From the NCBI GenBank assembly GCA_003218375.1, contig QHNH01000026.1, positions 2,840 to 66,588 on the forward strand: a DNA stretch of 63,749 bases, given 5' to 3'. The DNA is from Verrucomicrobiota bacterium. GTDB lineage: Bacteria > Verrucomicrobiota > Verrucomicrobiia > Chthoniobacterales > UBA10450. The stretch's first letter is position 1. Every line of letters starts with the position of its first letter. The notes beneath the pieces were generated by a model. That model was not told the origin of the DNA. It saw only the letters and a program-made list of their open reading frames with translations, and ran no database searches. The position numbers and the translations under genes are program-made. This document shows, piece by piece, positions 5,421 through 47,688 of this stretch.

Positions 5421-8280
<2,860 letters not shown>

Positions 8281-8282
8281 CT

Positions 8283-8332
8283 CGGAGGGACGTGCTTCCG
8301 CACGTCCGGACATGCGGAAGCATGTCCCTCCG
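8283..8332. repeat. R3-family palindromic repeat (GGAGGGACGTGCTTCCGCACGTCC type)
   Basis: A compact hairpin-forming palindrome between the convergent tgt and SGNH gene ends: CGGAGGGACGTGC at the left mirrors GCATGTCCCTCCG at the right, with internal TTCCGCACGTCC/GGACATGCGGAA. It begins 2 bp after the tgt stop and ends 6 bp before the stop of the minus-strand gene, so it could serve as a two-way transcription end. A longer copy is at 40247-40327. Confidence 0.8.
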
Positions 8333-10379: not shown

Positions 10380-10427
10380 GAGAGCACGGGAATCGCTTTC
10401 CAGTGAATCGTGTTCCGCGTCAAGACC

Positions 10428-10532
10428 GGAACATAGACTTCCAGTCTGTGCGCCCAGCGGACATGTTGTCCGTTGATTTACTTTCAGCGGAGTGAAACTC
10501 CGCTGGGCGCACAGGCCAGAGGCCTATGTTCC
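10428..10532. repeat. 105-bp composite palindromic repeat
   Basis: The outer arms GGAACATAG (10428-10436) and CTATGTTCC (10524-10532) enclose a second inverted pair, GTGCGCCCAGCGGA and TCCGCTGGGCGCAC. The element lies between two cluster genes, ending 3 bp before the stop of the AlgJ-like gene (minus strand) and starting 48 bp upstream of the SGNH gene start, so it may weaken or shape read-through between them. Confidence 0.8.
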
Positions 10533-10535
10533 GCG

Positions 10536-11713: not shown

Positions 11714-11801
11714 GGTGGATCGAGCGCTCCGCCGCTCGATGTTTGTTAATCGCGGCTGCGCCGCCACTCTTGCCATCGCGCGACGGAGCGCGCGATCCAC
11801 C
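11714..11801. repeat. R2-family palindromic element (GGTGGATCGAGCGCTCCGCC type)
   Basis: This 88-bp palindrome starts GGTGGATCGAGCGC and ends GAGCGCGCGATCCACC. Its first about 30 bases are identical to the copy inside smc (39372-39459), which also spans 88 bp. It ends 4 bp before the GTG start of the AlgI-like gene, and its sequence creates a false in-frame extension of that gene back to a TTG at 11743. Confidence 0.85.
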
Positions 11802-33478: not shown

Positions 33479-33555
33479 TTGGAGCCGGCCCGCCCTCGTG
33501 CCGGAGGGAGAATGCGACGCTACGACTCCACGGCCTGAGGGCAGGCCGCCTCCAA
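33479..33555. repeat. R5-family palindromic repeat
   Basis: Ends TTGGAGCCGGCC and GGCCGCCTCCAA are inverted, with internal CCCTCGTGCCGGAGGG and GCCTGAGGGC. The element sits between two minus-strand genes, 6 bp from the stop of the M20 peptidase gene. Confidence 0.72.
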
Positions 33556-33561
33556 TACCGC

Positions 33562-36443: not shown

Positions 36444-39400
36444 ATGCATCTCCATTCGCTCGAACTCGTCGGATTCAAATCGTTTGCGGACAAAACCACC
36501 TTCGAATTCCACGAAGGCGTCACCGCCATCGTGGGGCCTAACGGCTGCGGGAAATCGAATGTGCTCGACGCTGTTCGCTGGGTGCTCGGCGAACAATCGG
36601 CCAAGGCGCTGCGCGGCGGCGAAATGGCGGACGTTATTTTCAACGGGACCGATTCACGTAAGCCGGTCGGCTTCGGCGAAGTCTCACTGACGTTCACGAA
36701 TTGCGGGAGCGAGCTGGGCGTGGACTGGCACGATGTGCGCGTGACCCGGCGCGTGTATCGCGACGGCAACTCGGAATATTTGCTGAACAAAACGCCGTGC
36801 CGGTTGCGCGATATCCAGGCGCTCTTTGCCGACACTGGCGTGGGCCGCACCGCTTACTCGATCATGGAGCAGGGCAAGATCGATCTGATCTTGAGCTCGC
36901 GACCGGAAGATCGGCGGGCCGTTTTCGAAGAAGCCGCGGGGATCACGAAATTCAAAACGCAAAAGAAAGAAGCGCTGCGCAAACTCGAAGCGACCGAAGC
37001 GAATCTTCTTCGCATCGGCGACATCATTAAGGAAGTGAAGCGGCAGATCGGATCGCTGCAACGCCAGGCGGGAAAGGCGCGGCGCTACCAGGCGTTGCAT
37101 GCGGACCTGCAGGTGCTCGACACCCATCATTCGCGGCGCCAGCTGGACAGGCTCGAGGCGGAAGCCGAACACGCGCGAACCGAAATGGGTCGCTTGCACG
37201 ACGCGGAACAGGAAGCGCACGCCAAAATTGAGGCGAGCGAAAATGATTTGGCCGCGAAACGCCGCAGCCTCGATCAAGTGGACGGCGAGATCGGCGATGC
37301 GCGCGCGGAAGTGCAGCGTTTGCAAAGTGAGATGGCGGGACTCCGGAACCAAATCGATTTCAACCGGCAACGCGCCCAGGAAATCGGCGAGCTGATCGAA
37401 CGTTACGCGAGCGATATCGCGGCTGCCGAAGCGAAGCGGAGCGAGCAGGCCACCCAGCTTCAGGAAGCCGATGCGCTGATCGCGCGCACCAATCAGCTGC
37501 TGGTTTCGAAGGAACAGGAAGTCGAACAATTGACCGAGGCGCTGCACGCCGCGCGCGCTGAACGCTCGCAAAAGGAAGACGAGCTCCAGGCTTTACAGAC
37601 GTCGCTCTCGAAGCTTGAAAGTCGGATCGCCAGCCTCCAGACCGATTTAAGCGGAATGTCGGCGCGGCGGGACGCGACCACGGCGCGCGTCGCAGAACTA
37701 ACGAATCTGGTCAGTGGGGCGACGCGCGATCTGGCGACCGCGCGCGCGAATCTTAGTGCCGCGCGCGCCGCCATGGAAACGGAACGACAGACCGCGCAGC
37801 AGCGGAAGGAAACGTTGCACCAGGCGGAGGAACGCCTGCAGCAGAATCAAGCGGCGGTCGCGGCGGCGGAAAAAGAAATCGGACGTCTGGAGCGGACGAT
37901 CGCGGAAAAACAGGCGCGTCTCGAGGTCTTGCGTCAGATGACCGAAGAGGGCCACGGTCTGGAAAAAGGTTCGCAGGCGGTCTTGAAAGGTCTCGACGAT
38001 CCGGAACGCATCCGACCGGCGATCGCCGGCGCGCTCGTCGCCAGCTTGAACGTGGAACGAGAGTTCGTCCCGGCTCTGGAAGCCGCACTCGGCCGAAACA
38101 TGCATGCGGTCGTTTTACGCTCACCGGATCTGGCGGCCGACATTTTCCAGAAACTCGCGGACCAGAAATTGGGACAGGCCGCGCTCGCCATCGCCGGGCT
38201 TTCCGCGACGACGGGCGAGAGCGCTACCTCTCCTCTTCCGCAGGGCGCAATCGCGTGGGCGGTGAACAAGGTGGAGGCGCCGGCGGAACTCGCGCCACTT
38301 ATTAAAAATCTTCTGCGCGAAGTGGCGGTTGTTTCCGATCTTGCCACCGGCTTGAAACTGAAACAGGCGGCGCGCAATCTTGCGTTTGCGACGCTCGGCG
38401 GTGAGTTCATCTCCGCGGAAGGAATTATTTTCGGTGGAGGGGTCAACGCCGCCACCGATTCCATGCTCGGACGGAAAGCGATCATCACCGGCCTCGATCA
38501 GGAAGCGCAGGCACTCGAAACAGAAAGAGCCGGGGCGATCCTCGCGCGCGATCAAGCGAAAGAGCAGGTCCTGTCCGCGGAGGCGGCTGTCGCGGAAGCG
38601 CGCCGAAGCCATGAGAGCGCGCACGAAAAATCGTCCCAAACCGGCGTCGAGATTCTTTCAGCCGAACGCGCCGTGGCCGACGAAGAACGGAAACTGGCGC
38701 AGCTCGAAACGGAGAAGAGTACGCTCGAGCAGCAAGTCCGGAACGCCGACGATCGGATCGCGGAGATCGACCGCGAGCTTCAGGCAGATCGCAAGAACCT
38801 GGAGAACGAGCAGGGTCTCCAAATCGCGGCGGAAAAAACACGGGACAACGCGCGTTTGCGAGAGGAAGAAGCGGCGGAAAAACTCAATGAGCTTCGCCTC
38901 GCCGTGGCGACGGAACGGCAGCGCCACGAAAGTTTGATCCATCATCGGGAGCCGATGGCGGCGCGCGAAGCGGAGTTGGCCGATCTCGTCGCCGCGCGAA
39001 ATGGCGATATCGCGACCTATCAAGACCGGCTCGCCCGGCAGGCCCGCGAATCAGAGCAGGCCGAGGCCAGGATCCAATCGCACGCGTCGGAATTGGAGTC
39101 GGCCGAGCAAAATGCGGCTACGCTCGCGGAACAACGAAGCGCCCGACTCGCGGTCGTGACCGAGCAGGAAACCCGGCTGCGGGCTTTGCGAAATTCTCTA
39201 AATGATCTGCGCGACTCGCGCGGCAAGGAGGAAGTCCGCCAGACGCAGTTGCAATTGCGGATCGAGAATCTGGTCGAACACGTGACGCGCCGATATCAAG
39301 TCGATCTGCGCGAGTTCGCCGCCGACACGTTCGCCTTCCAGAAAACCTTAAGCGTGATCACGAAGCGACGCGGTGGATCGAGCGCTCCGCCGCTCGATGT

Positions 39401-40241
39401 TAATAATGGCGGCGAAGCCGCGACCACCGAAGCATCGTCCGCGGAGCGGCCGATCCACCAAACCGAAAGCCTCGAGCAAATCATCGCCGAGCTAACGCGC
39501 CAGCTCGATAACATGGGGCCGGTGAATCTCGATGCCGTCCATGAGTACGATGAGCTGGAAGAGCGCTACCGTTTTCTGGAGACGCAAAACAACGATTTGA
39601 CCGCGGCGCGCCGGGAAGTGCTCGACGTAATCGCCCGGATCAACAGCACCACCCAAAAACTTTTCGCCGAAACGTTCGCGCAGGTGCGGATCAATTTTGG
39701 TGAGATGTTCGCGGAAATGTTCGGCGGCGGTCGCGCCGATCTTTCGCTTCAGGATGAAAACGATCCGCTCAATTGCGGCATTGAGATCACCGCCAAACCG
39801 CCGGGGAAACAACTCCAAAGCGTTTCACTTCTTTCCGGCGGCGAACGGACGATGACGGCGGTCGCGTTGCTTTTCGCGATCTACATGGTGCGGCCGAGCC
39901 CGTTCTGCATCCTCGATGAAATGGACGCGCCGCTGGACGAGAGCAACATCAACCGTTTCATCAAGGTGCTGGAACGTTTCGTTTCGCAAAGCCAGTTCAT
40001 CATCATCACCCACAACAAGCGCACGATCGCAAAGGCGGACATCCTCTACGGCGTGACCATGGAAGAACGCGGTGTGAGCAAACTCGTCGGGATGAAATTG
40101 GCGGCCGAAAAAGGCAGCGACGGCGAACTGCGGCGGACTTCGTCGAACGGAAACGGCTCGGCGGTCCACGAAAAGCCGCGCCAGGGCCAGTTCGCCATCG
40201 CCGGCGAAGCCGAAGAACATCGGCGAACAGCGCACCGATAA
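36444..40241 (+). CDS. smc: Chromosome segregation protein SMC
   Basis: The 1265-residue ATPase has Walker A GPNGCGKSNVLDAVRW (31-46), the N-terminal SRPEDRRAVFEEAAGI block, two long coiled coils, a hinge around residues 520-680 (including the GG-rich GGEFISAEGIIFGGG) and the C-terminal head with LLSGGERTMTAVALLFA (about 1130) and CILDEMDAPLDESN. It compacts and segregates the chromosome with ScpA/B. Residues 977-1006 are encoded by an R2 palindrome read in frame, just before the LEQIIAELTRQLDNMGPVNL segment at the head end of the coiled coil. It ends 6 bp before an R3 repeat. Confidence 0.95.
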   Translation: MHLHSLELVGFKSFADKTTFEFHEGVTAIVGPNGCGKSNVLDAVRWVLGEQSAKALRGGEMADVIFNGTDSRKPVGFGEVSLTFTNCGSELGVDWHDVRVTRRVYRDGNSEYLLNKTPCRLRDIQALFADTGVGRTAYSIMEQGKIDLILSSRPEDRRAVFEEAAGITKFKTQKKEALRKLEATEANLLRIGDIIKEVKRQIGSLQRQAGKARRYQALHADLQVLDTHHSRRQLDRLEAEAEHARTEMGRLHDAEQEAHAKIEASENDLAAKRRSLDQVDGEIGDARAEVQRLQSEMAGLRNQIDFNRQRAQEIGELIERYASDIAAAEAKRSEQATQLQEADALIARTNQLLVSKEQEVEQLTEALHAARAERSQKEDELQALQTSLSKLESRIASLQTDLSGMSARRDATTARVAELTNLVSGATRDLATARANLSAARAAMETERQTAQQRKETLHQAEERLQQNQAAVAAAEKEIGRLERTIAEKQARLEVLRQMTEEGHGLEKGSQAVLKGLDDPERIRPAIAGALVASLNVEREFVPALEAALGRNMHAVVLRSPDLAADIFQKLADQKLGQAALAIAGLSATTGESATSPLPQGAIAWAVNKVEAPAELAPLIKNLLREVAVVSDLATGLKLKQAARNLAFATLGGEFISAEGIIFGGGVNAATDSMLGRKAIITGLDQEAQALETERAGAILARDQAKEQVLSAEAAVAEARRSHESAHEKSSQTGVEILSAERAVADEERKLAQLETEKSTLEQQVRNADDRIAEIDRELQADRKNLENEQGLQIAAEKTRDNARLREEEAAEKLNELRLAVATERQRHESLIHHREPMAAREAELADLVAARNGDIATYQDRLARQARESEQAEARIQSHASELESAEQNAATLAEQRSARLAVVTEQETRLRALRNSLNDLRDSRGKEEVRQTQLQLRIENLVEHVTRRYQVDLREFAADTFAFQKTLSVITKRRGGSSAPPLDVNNGGEAATTEASSAERPIHQTESLEQIIAELTRQLDNMGPVNLDAVHEYDELEERYRFLETQNNDLTAARREVLDVIARINSTTQKLFAETFAQVRINFGEMFAEMFGGGRADLSLQDENDPLNCGIEITAKPPGKQLQSVSLLSGGERTMTAVALLFAIYMVRPSPFCILDEMDAPLDESNINRFIKVLERFVSQSQFIIITHNKRTIAKADILYGVTMEERGVSKLVGMKLAAEKGSDGELRRTSSNGNGSAVHEKPRQGQFAIAGEAEEHRRTAHR
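39372..39459. repeat. R2-family palindromic element inserted in frame within smc
   Basis: The 88-bp segment begins GGTGGATCGAGCGC and ends GAGCGGCCGATCCACC. Its first about 30 bases are identical to the intergenic copy at 11714-11801, which is also 88 bp. It is read as residues 977-1006 (G-G-S-S-A-P-P-L at the start), rich in Gly, Ser, Ala and Pro and unlike the flanking coiled coil. Confidence 0.9.
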
Positions 40242-40246
40242 GCGCT

Positions 40247-40327
40247 CGGAGGGACGTGCTTCCGCACGTCCCATTACTTTGCCTCGCCCGCGATATGAAG
40301 TGGGACGTGCAGAAGCACGTCCCTCCG
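40247..40327. repeat. R3-family palindromic repeat after smc
   Basis: CGGAGGGACGTGCTTC at the left and GAAGCACGTCCCTCCG at the right are inverted ends; an internal GGGACGTGC copy adds to the fold. It shares its left end with the 8283-8332 repeat. It starts 5 bp after the smc stop. Confidence 0.82.
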
Positions 40328-46094: not shown

Positions 46095-47579
46095 TTGGCT
46101 ACTGATCCATCCGTCCGAGGAGGTCAGCAGTCTCGCAGAAAATCGGGCAATGAGCCCGGCCGAGGCTGGCCGGAAAAGAATGGCGGCCCGCGCAACGGGG
46201 AGTCACTCACAAGTTCTGCGCAGGATATTCACAGAACCCTGCCGCATAGCATCGAGGCGGAGCAGGGCGTGCTCGGTTCCATGCTCATCTCGCCGCGCGA
46301 AATCATCGCGGAATGCGTCGAGAAGATTAACGAGAATTATTTTTATGTTCCCGCGCACCAGACGATCTACCTGGTGCTGGTCGAATTGTGGAACGGCGGG
46401 CAAGGCATCGACCTGATCACGTTCACGCAGGTCCTGCGCGACCGGAATTTGCTGGAGACGGTCGGCGGCGCCGCGGCAGTGACCAGCCTGTTCACCTTCG
46501 TTCCGACGGCGGCGAACGTGACCTACTACCTCGAGATCGTCCGCGACAAATACATCCTGCGGCAGATCATCGCCGCTTGCACCGAGAGCGTGCGGCGCTC
46601 GTTCGAAGAGCAGGACGAAGTGCACAATCTGCTCGACGAAGTGGAGCAGAAAATCTTTTCCGTCGGCGAAGATCGCTTCAAAGGCCAGGTCCTCACCATG
46701 AAGGACCAGGTCATGGAAGCGATTGAGGCCATCGAGCAGCTCTACGAGCGCCGTGGCGGAATCACTGGGATCTCGACCGGGTTTGCCGAGCTGGATCGGA
46801 TGACGAACGGACTGCACGAATCCGAAATGATCGTGATCGCGGCGCGACCGAGCATGGGAAAGACGGCGCTGGCGATGAACATCGCCGAGCACGTCGCGAT
46901 CAACGAGAAGTTGCCGGTCGCGGTCTTCAGTTTAGAAATGAGCAGCCAGCAACTCGTGCAACGTCTGCTTTGCTCCCGCGCCCGGGTGAACTTGCAGAAG
47001 GTTCGCGACGGCTTTTTGGCGGAACGCGATTTTCCGAGTCTGACTGCCGCGGCCTCGAAGCTGGCCGAGGCGCAAATCTTCATCGATGACAGCGCGAGCT
47101 TGAGCATCCTGGAATTGCGCGCGAAAGCGCGACGCTTGAAGGCGCAGAAAGACATCAAGCTGATCGTGGTCGATTATCTGCAGCTCTTGCGATCGACGAC
47201 GCGGAGAGCCCAAGACAATCGCCAACTGGAAATTTCCGAGATCTCGGCCGGCTTGAAGGGTCTGGCGAAAGAATTGAAGGTCCCGGTGCTCGTGCTTGCT
47301 CAATTGAATCGCCAGCCGGAAGCGCGGACCGGCGGCAAGCCGCGCTTGAGCGATTTGCGCGAATCCGGCTCGATCGAACAGGATGCCGATCTGGTGGGAC
47401 TACTCGTTAGGCCAGAAATTTACGAGGAAGACGAAGATGCTCGTGCCGAGAAAGCCGGAGAAGCCGAGCTGATCATTGCGAAGCAACGCAATGGCCCGGT
47501 CGGCGAAATCGCGCTGACGTTCTTGAAGGAGTTCACGCGCTTCGAAGATCGGGCGCGGAATGTGAGCGAGCCGATGTAG
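46095..47579 (+). CDS. dnaB: Replicative DNA helicase DnaB
   Basis: The 494-residue helicase has an N-terminal domain (LPHSIEAEQGVLGSMLI), a linker, and a RecA-like motor with Walker A RPSMGKTALAMNIAEH, VFSLEMSSQQLVQRLL, Walker B KLIVVDYLQLL and the ending LSDLRESGSIEQDADLVG. It unwinds DNA ahead of the replisome. The chosen TTG at 46095 directly follows the rplI stop; the first about 48 residues are a polar, Gly/Arg-rich extension, so a later start cannot be excluded. An R1 repeat follows within about 8 bp. Confidence 0.94.
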   Translation: MATDPSVRGGQQSRRKSGNEPGRGWPEKNGGPRNGESLTSSAQDIHRTLPHSIEAEQGVLGSMLISPREIIAECVEKINENYFYVPAHQTIYLVLVELWNGGQGIDLITFTQVLRDRNLLETVGGAAAVTSLFTFVPTAANVTYYLEIVRDKYILRQIIAACTESVRRSFEEQDEVHNLLDEVEQKIFSVGEDRFKGQVLTMKDQVMEAIEAIEQLYERRGGITGISTGFAELDRMTNGLHESEMIVIAARPSMGKTALAMNIAEHVAINEKLPVAVFSLEMSSQQLVQRLLCSRARVNLQKVRDGFLAERDFPSLTAAASKLAEAQIFIDDSASLSILELRAKARRLKAQKDIKLIVVDYLQLLRSTTRRAQDNRQLEISEISAGLKGLAKELKVPVLVLAQLNRQPEARTGGKPRLSDLRESGSIEQDADLVGLLVRPEIYEEDEDARAEKAGEAELIIAKQRNGPVGEIALTFLKEFTRFEDRARNVSEPM

Positions 47580-47586
47580 CGTTCTT

Positions 47587-47688
47587 CTGTAGCCGCGGCC
47601 CTGTGGGCCGCGTGGCCTTGCGCTGGGCAACAAAGGCACCGGCTCTCGCGCTTCGCACAGCGAAGCGGCCACAGAAGAGCGGCTACAG
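47587..47688. repeat. R1-family palindromic repeat between dnaB and tkt
   Basis: CTGTAGCCGCGGCCCTGTGGG at the left mirrors the family core, and AGCGGCTACAG closes it. The interior carries an added inverted pair (CTTCGCACAGCGAAG). The TAG stop of tkt (minus strand, 47683-47685) is the complement of the CTA in the closing GGCTACAG. Confidence 0.85.

Follow-up and report, generated by a model that had tools for sequence, protein, structure and literature searches.

A RAYT-associated REPIN read in frame as a probable linker in the SMC joint of a Verrucomicrobiota bacterium

The smc gene of a Verrucomicrobiota bacterium contains an 88-bp block that is very probably a RAYT-associated REPIN, captured in frame by the Smc joint loop and translated as a flexible linker, at a site that acts as a filter for recurrent REP families. 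Intragenic REPs are known, Verrucomicrobia included, and recurrent colonisation of the SMC joint by several families appears to be new. The present analysis adds that a single SMC loop has repeatedly captured REP-type families, at least five of them, and further adds the link between the R2 family and a RAYT, graded decay, and excess synonymous conservation.

Results

The element in smc and its intergenic copy

We analysed a window of 63,749 nucleotides (the whole stretch of DNA presented above), in which the following features are discussed.

36444..40241, + strand: smc, chromosome segregation protein SMC, 1265 aa; ORF matching NCBIfam TIGR02168 (SMC_prok_B) at 1013.7 bits (cut-off 567)
39372..39459, + strand: R2 element, a REPIN of 88 bp; encodes SMC residues 977-1006, GGSSAPPLDVNNGGEAATTEASSAERPIH and one shared codon
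39372..39399, + strand: left REP unit, GGTGG tag and then hairpin ATCGAGCGCTCCGCCGCTCGATG, from within-arm covariation in 50 parsed copies
39400..39432, + strand: spacer with inner hairpin GGCGGCGAAGCCGCG, both sides of whose pairs vary among copies
39433..39459, - strand: right REP unit, inverted, variant GGCCGCTCCGCGG
11714..11801, no strand assigned: R2 copy between genes, 88 bp, located upstream of a gene for an MBOAT-type acyltransferase

A preliminary description of the window had noted that the stretch inside smc shares its first 30 or so bases, its ends and its length with the intergenic copy. This held on direct comparison: positions 39372-39401 and 11714-11743 are identical at 30/30 bases, and both elements are 88 bp long, start with GGTGGATC and end with GATCCACC. 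For the R2 28-mer, 0 matches were expected by chance and three were found at up to three mismatches, the inverted arm of the intergenic copy among them. The two window copies have folding energies of -52.1 and -55.3 kcal/mol (z about -6.1 against shuffles), and the element in smc had no match to an Rfam family above the gathering score. The smc ORF is uninterrupted across positions 39372-39459, which are codons 977-1006, as first proposed. The left arm of the smc copy is the exact genomic consensus. Its right arm has diverged from that consensus, and the variant GGCCGCTCCGCGG is common to the four smc copies of the window's genus (with one base changed in G007).

Anatomy and copy number of the R2 family

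The preliminary description had left open whether the genome holds R2 copies beyond these two. Using BLAST and a covariance model, we mapped about 20 full-length copies plus fragments in the genome of the window (G000; 3.96 Mb in 52 contigs). The model was built from 17 copies (sixteen full ones of 85-93 bp and one shortened), which align as inverted doublets, i.e. two inverted arms with a spacer, and in which the GGTGG tag is invariant (17/17). GTGG is a reported variant of the GTAG tag of REPs (PMC3733652). The consensus consists of GGTGGATCGAGCGCTCCGCCGCTCGATG, then a spacer that holds a small GC hairpin, then the inverted second arm. R2 is also abundant in G002, G005, G006, and G007, with at least about 35 copies each (70-75 two-strand matches listed). 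REP copies in Pseudomonas number in the hundreds, and the R2 number is low by comparison.

We examined covariation in 57 distinct R2 copies from six genomes of the family, fifty of which could be parsed in both arms. Within an arm, the two variable bases are paired in 85 per cent of cases (0/2000 shuffles were as high), whereas the corresponding variable bases of the two arms pair in only 26 per cent. As covariation is found inside the arms and not between them, each arm forms its own GGTGG-tagged REP hairpin, and the two together make up a REPIN. The 'palindrome' first described is a real repeat family, made of two REP hairpins instead of one palindrome; a single long palindrome was ruled out by the lack of mutual covariation between the arms at variable positions. 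A special frame design was also ruled out, with each of the six frames open in 27-40 of the fifty-seven copies and lengths spread evenly modulo 3.

A RAYT gene between R2 copies

A search of G000 with the Y1_Tnp profile gave twelve matches. One of them (C19:85646-85867) sits between R2 copies at 85388-85478 and 85943-86031, which are inverted and about 465 bp apart.

L074:579-1097, - strand: RAYT gene of G000, R2-bracketed, 172-aa product

This product scored 75 bits against the NCBIfam model for REP-associated tyrosine transposases (NF047646, REP_Tyr_transpos; below the cut-off of 80), reached the cut-off of 23 for Pfam PF01797, and weakly matched TnpArep (PDB 4ER8, E 0.004). The tyrosine of YIRQNP is present, and HLR replaces the HUH motif (His to Arg), which reads HLH or HIH in close homologues; with this replacement the protein may be inactive now. 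Judged from its sequence, the gene is a RAYT homologue that is probably impaired; alternatively, the base behind HLR may be an assembly error.

Close homologues with 68-69 per cent identity are found in G002, G006, G011, G015, and G030. Using the R2 model on eight RAYT homologues (41-69 per cent identity, L088-L095), we found R2-like elements on both sides of five (L088, L089, L090, L091, L094). These comprise four of the close homologues (G006, G011, G015, G030) together with a broken homologue from G018. The same model showed no R2-like flanks at L092, L093, or L095 (G002, G055, and G048). No close R2 RAYT was found in G005 or G007, though both are rich in R2 copies. Almost every other RAYT-like locus in G000 has flanking palindromes of a family of its own, with none reported at L079. 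Separately, window palindromes at 10427-10533, 7612-7703, 47572-47688, and 33479-33556 match flanks of the RAYT-like loci L077, L082, and L079/L081.

Location of R2 copies and a second in-frame case

Most R2 copies in G000 are intergenic. They often lie directly after TA, their first G then completing a TAG stop codon according to the ORF-end coordinates of L003, L004, L006, L009, L011, L012, and L019; TA precedes GGTGG at one end or more in 25 of the 57 copies. Genes with family matches near R2 usually end at or before the element. Coding as the general state of R2 was ruled out, the frames that span copies mostly looking spurious (the detailed inspection of adjacent ORFs covered one genome). 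Only two of the roughly twenty copies are internal to genes, in smc and in nuoM. The nuoM product (TIGR01972, 418 bits) carries its in-frame copy in the loop preceding the last conserved block, and a copy in another genus matches it in place, orientation, and frame:

C52:105100-105187 (L002 1501-1588): R2 in nuoM of G000, variant GGCCGCTCCG
C22:3661-3748 (L249): R2 in nuoM of G014 (another genus), variant GGCCGCTCCG

The same loop holds an R2 remnant in G005, and other genomes have a different loop. The suggestion that this genome habitually carries elements inside its genes gains a second in-frame example in nuoM, but with two of about twenty copies it describes a minority outcome. In addition, a hydrolase-methyltransferase fusion gene (L013 1501-1554) appears to end within R2, which gives its last eighteen residues and stop.

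The insert in the SMC protein

We modelled a C-terminal segment of SMC with AlphaFold2, in which the R2 insert is residues 106-135. The prediction has a helix up to residue 106, pLDDT below 50 at 107-110 and again at 113-135, and a second helix starting at 136, so that the insert is modelled as a disordered loop between two helices; the overall fold is weak (mean pLDDT 66.7, pTM 0.34). A colinear alignment with B. subtilis Smc, its numbering anchored by inference at E1118, puts the insert near residue 965, within the joint (922-1011). Published screens found random peptide insertions to be harmful in the Smc arms, with exceptions close to the hinge and in some portions of the joint (PMC5526789, PMC5344682). 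The Gly/Ser/Pro-rich block had been described as lying where SMC proteins tolerate breaks, which agrees with its position in the joint, a region reported as insertion-tolerant (PMC5526789).

The same loop in related genomes

The genomes of the family are uncultured Chthoniobacterales/Spartobacteria, largely assembled from soil metagenomes. The smc linker was readable in 74 of 83 genomes, and forty-four of these linkers include a recognisable REP-type palindrome. Eighteen of the seventy-four are R2-derived (thirteen at E ≤0.01 with the R2 model, the others by sequence resemblance). The other twenty-six carry REP-type palindromes of at least four families besides R2, as listed here; the patterns were picked after viewing the linkers and the family counts are descriptive.

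13 genomes: REP-B linker, GGAGGGC...GCCCCTCC
5 genomes: palindrome CTGTAGCC
4 genomes: palindrome of the GCGGGCTTGCAGCCCGC type
3 genomes: palindrome GGGGAGCGCACGCG
1 genome: palindrome GGAGGTCGTCCCTCC

REP-B is multi-copy in all six genomes tested, and the GGGGAGCGCACGCG-type linker matches a palindrome flanking the RAYT locus L078 of G000. Linker types other than these two and R2 were identified as REPs by sequence pattern.

G005, G006, and G007 carry R2 in the smc loop as G000 does, an orthologous retention within the genus, and the block (residues 977-1006) is absent from the sister species G001, G002, and G003. Genera g5, g6, and g8 also have R2 in this loop, but in a private variant of their own, in which the right unit (if readable) has TCTCC or TCTCT followed by GA or GG. 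TCTCCGA occurs in 0/56 genomic R2 copies. The different private right-arm variants of g1 and of g5/g6/g8 indicate at least two R2 insertions, each inherited since. A quick FastTree phylogeny of SMC without the linker requires at least eight to nine changes for R2 and at least eighteen for all linker types. Together with the differing right-arm variants, this leaves one ancient insertion for all R2 linkers unsupported. In this family-wide survey the R2 linker was patchy within the family, which speaks against the conservation across distant Verrucomicrobiota that the preliminary description had named as the contrary outcome. We found no recent empty R2 site. A further palindrome is nested within R2 in G007 and G014, and in G007 it interrupts the left arm of the smc element. 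A GGGCTCAGGACAGGCTC-type palindrome is nested in another REP in the smc linkers of L035 (G007) and L242 (G095).

Comparison with known systems

R2 resembles the REPINs and RAYTs of Bertels and Rainey (2011, PMC3116915) in its inverted REP doublet with spacer, long hairpin, dispersed copies, and RAYT bracketed by REPs. In P. fluorescens SBW25, REPINs are described as almost wholly extragenic, with 14 of 1,067 16-mer occurrences overlapping genes (PMC3116915). Unlike those REPINs, one R2 copy is a lasting part of SMC and another of NuoM. The smc and nuoM copies depart from the extragenic location of REPs and REPINs, which is typical of the group without being obligatory; the literature accepts intragenic members.

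Another close precedent by description is the GTAG superfamily (PMC3733652), in which GTAG-20 of Opitutus terrae has a GTGG tag and forms dimers that, inside ORFs, encode 20-30 residues. It shares with R2 the GTGG-type tag, the dimers, and the phylum Verrucomicrobia. REP ends were found to supply TAG stop codons, and the authors suggested that translated REPs form flexible linkers or loops (PMC3733652). A list of intragenic REPs appeared in 2013; many of them lie in genes for DNA repair, and Opitutus terrae of the Verrucomicrobiota has the largest number of GTAG cases (PMC3733652). The recB genes of two Xanthomonas species, with different REPs at about the same site, were the sole same-site case (PMC3733652). 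Where GTAG REPs mostly occupy different sites, here one SMC loop has been taken by at least five REP-type families across a bacterial family. The term smc does not occur in the main text of that paper (PMC3733652). Rickettsia palindromic elements (RPE), again compared by description, are like R2 in being palindromic repeats read in frame in protein genes and differ in that R2 comes with a RAYT. RPE-4 and RPE-6 have been equated with REPs of the PMC3733652 set, and RPE-1 is longer (PMC3733652).

The B. subtilis insertion screen (PMC5344682, PMC5526789) likewise found parts of the joint to tolerate peptides. Its inserts were artificial and fourteen residues long, whereas the linkers of this family are natural mobile-DNA inserts of about thirty residues. 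They amount to a natural SMC insertion screen, in which mobile DNA rather than the laboratory locates a tolerated joint loop. They also offer a test case for mobile repeats becoming protein, in which one loop is seen at several stages: the hairpins are intact in G000 and G036, decayed in genus g5, and elsewhere replaced by a different repeat family.

Synonymous conservation and alternative explanations

When the four genus members are compared in pairs, 105 of 113 codons that encode a shared residue within the element are identical, against 0.54 elsewhere. None of the 1117 control windows of thirty codons was as high; as these windows overlap and the pairs share ancestry, the figures are ranks and not probabilities. 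G000 and G036, from different genera, match at 13/13 such codons. Genus g5 shows a weak excess or none in close pairs and a larger one in distant pairs, and in REP-B linkers the excess is not consistent. In three intergenic R2 copies shared with G005, the arms are mostly kept too.

Under the explanation we favour, a REPIN, i.e. a non-autonomous mobile element of two inverted GGTGG-tagged REP hairpins associated with a RAYT transposase, would have been fixed in frame in the joint loop, with the coiled coil of the hinge side before it and the C-terminal head after it. It would be translated there as a flexible linker rich in Gly, Ser, Ala, and Pro that does not destroy SMC, and these species presumably tolerate it. 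Such elements would insert widely, with copies that land in the joint loop with a readable frame persisting; a loop acting as a filter in this way would account for different REP families having landed there repeatedly in the family. We infer the insertion reaction itself and, as the length of 88 is not a multiple of three, small compensating changes must have gone with it. Besides this length, the points that weigh against the explanation are that no recent empty site was found, the HLR motif of the G000 RAYT, the R2-rich genomes G005 and G007 in which no close R2 RAYT was found, the G002 and G055 homologues without R2-like flanks, and the origin of the genomes in metagenome assemblies of uncultured bacteria. 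More speculatively, and only as a tentative proposal, the joint loop may be a standing entry port that turns unrelated RAYT-driven REPINs into protein. The REPIN captured in the window's genus may then have been domesticated, with selection acting on the peptide and also on the hairpins in its DNA or RNA.

Several causes might lie behind the high nucleotide conservation. The smc element, still a REPIN by origin, could be kept for a job at the nucleotide level, as an mRNA hairpin slowing ribosomes before the head domain or as a site on the DNA recognised by a protein such as RAYT or gyrase, with the peptide linker as the price. This idea, which we regard as possible but rather doubtful, draws on the codon identities in the genus and between G000 and G036. 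It also draws on REP hairpins that are kept in both arms despite the private right arm, a combination that speaks against copying from other R2 copies. It fits poorly with the uneven excess in g5 and REP-B linkers, the broken left arm in G007, and several sisters entirely without the element. Whether REPs serve the host is an old question, and the synonymous conservation makes it testable in one gene. Alternatively, the element could be inert selfish DNA, conserved through gene conversion with other R2 copies of the same genome. The left arm is indeed identical to the genomic consensus, and conservation is strongest in the R2-rich genus and weak in g5, where copies are few. However, the four smc copies keep GGCCGCTCCGCGG in the right arm, unlike the consensus, and at least that half has therefore not been overwritten, which makes gene conversion an unlikely source.

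Homologous recombination of smc segments between species, in place of repeated insertion, might also have spread the linker types. An RWID-type R2 linker (L161) does lie beside REP-B linkers on the SMC tree, with short branches. We nevertheless consider this quite improbable, given the different private variants in the R2 linkers of g1 and g5/g6/g8 and the occupation of the site by at least five REP-type families, which needs several insertions in any case. Finally, a GC-rich genome and a Gly/Ala-rich stretch could suggest a chance palindrome or ordinary GC-rich coding sequence. We give this practically no credence and reject it on the 30/30 identical bases where none were expected, the roughly twenty genomic copies, and the covariation.

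Two further observations concern the region just outside smc. In G019 an R2-like element lies directly 3' of the gene (L048 5289-5377). In the window, palindromes of the GGAGGGACGTG family occur at 8280-8307 and 40244-40327, with one pair directly 3' of the smc stop codon.
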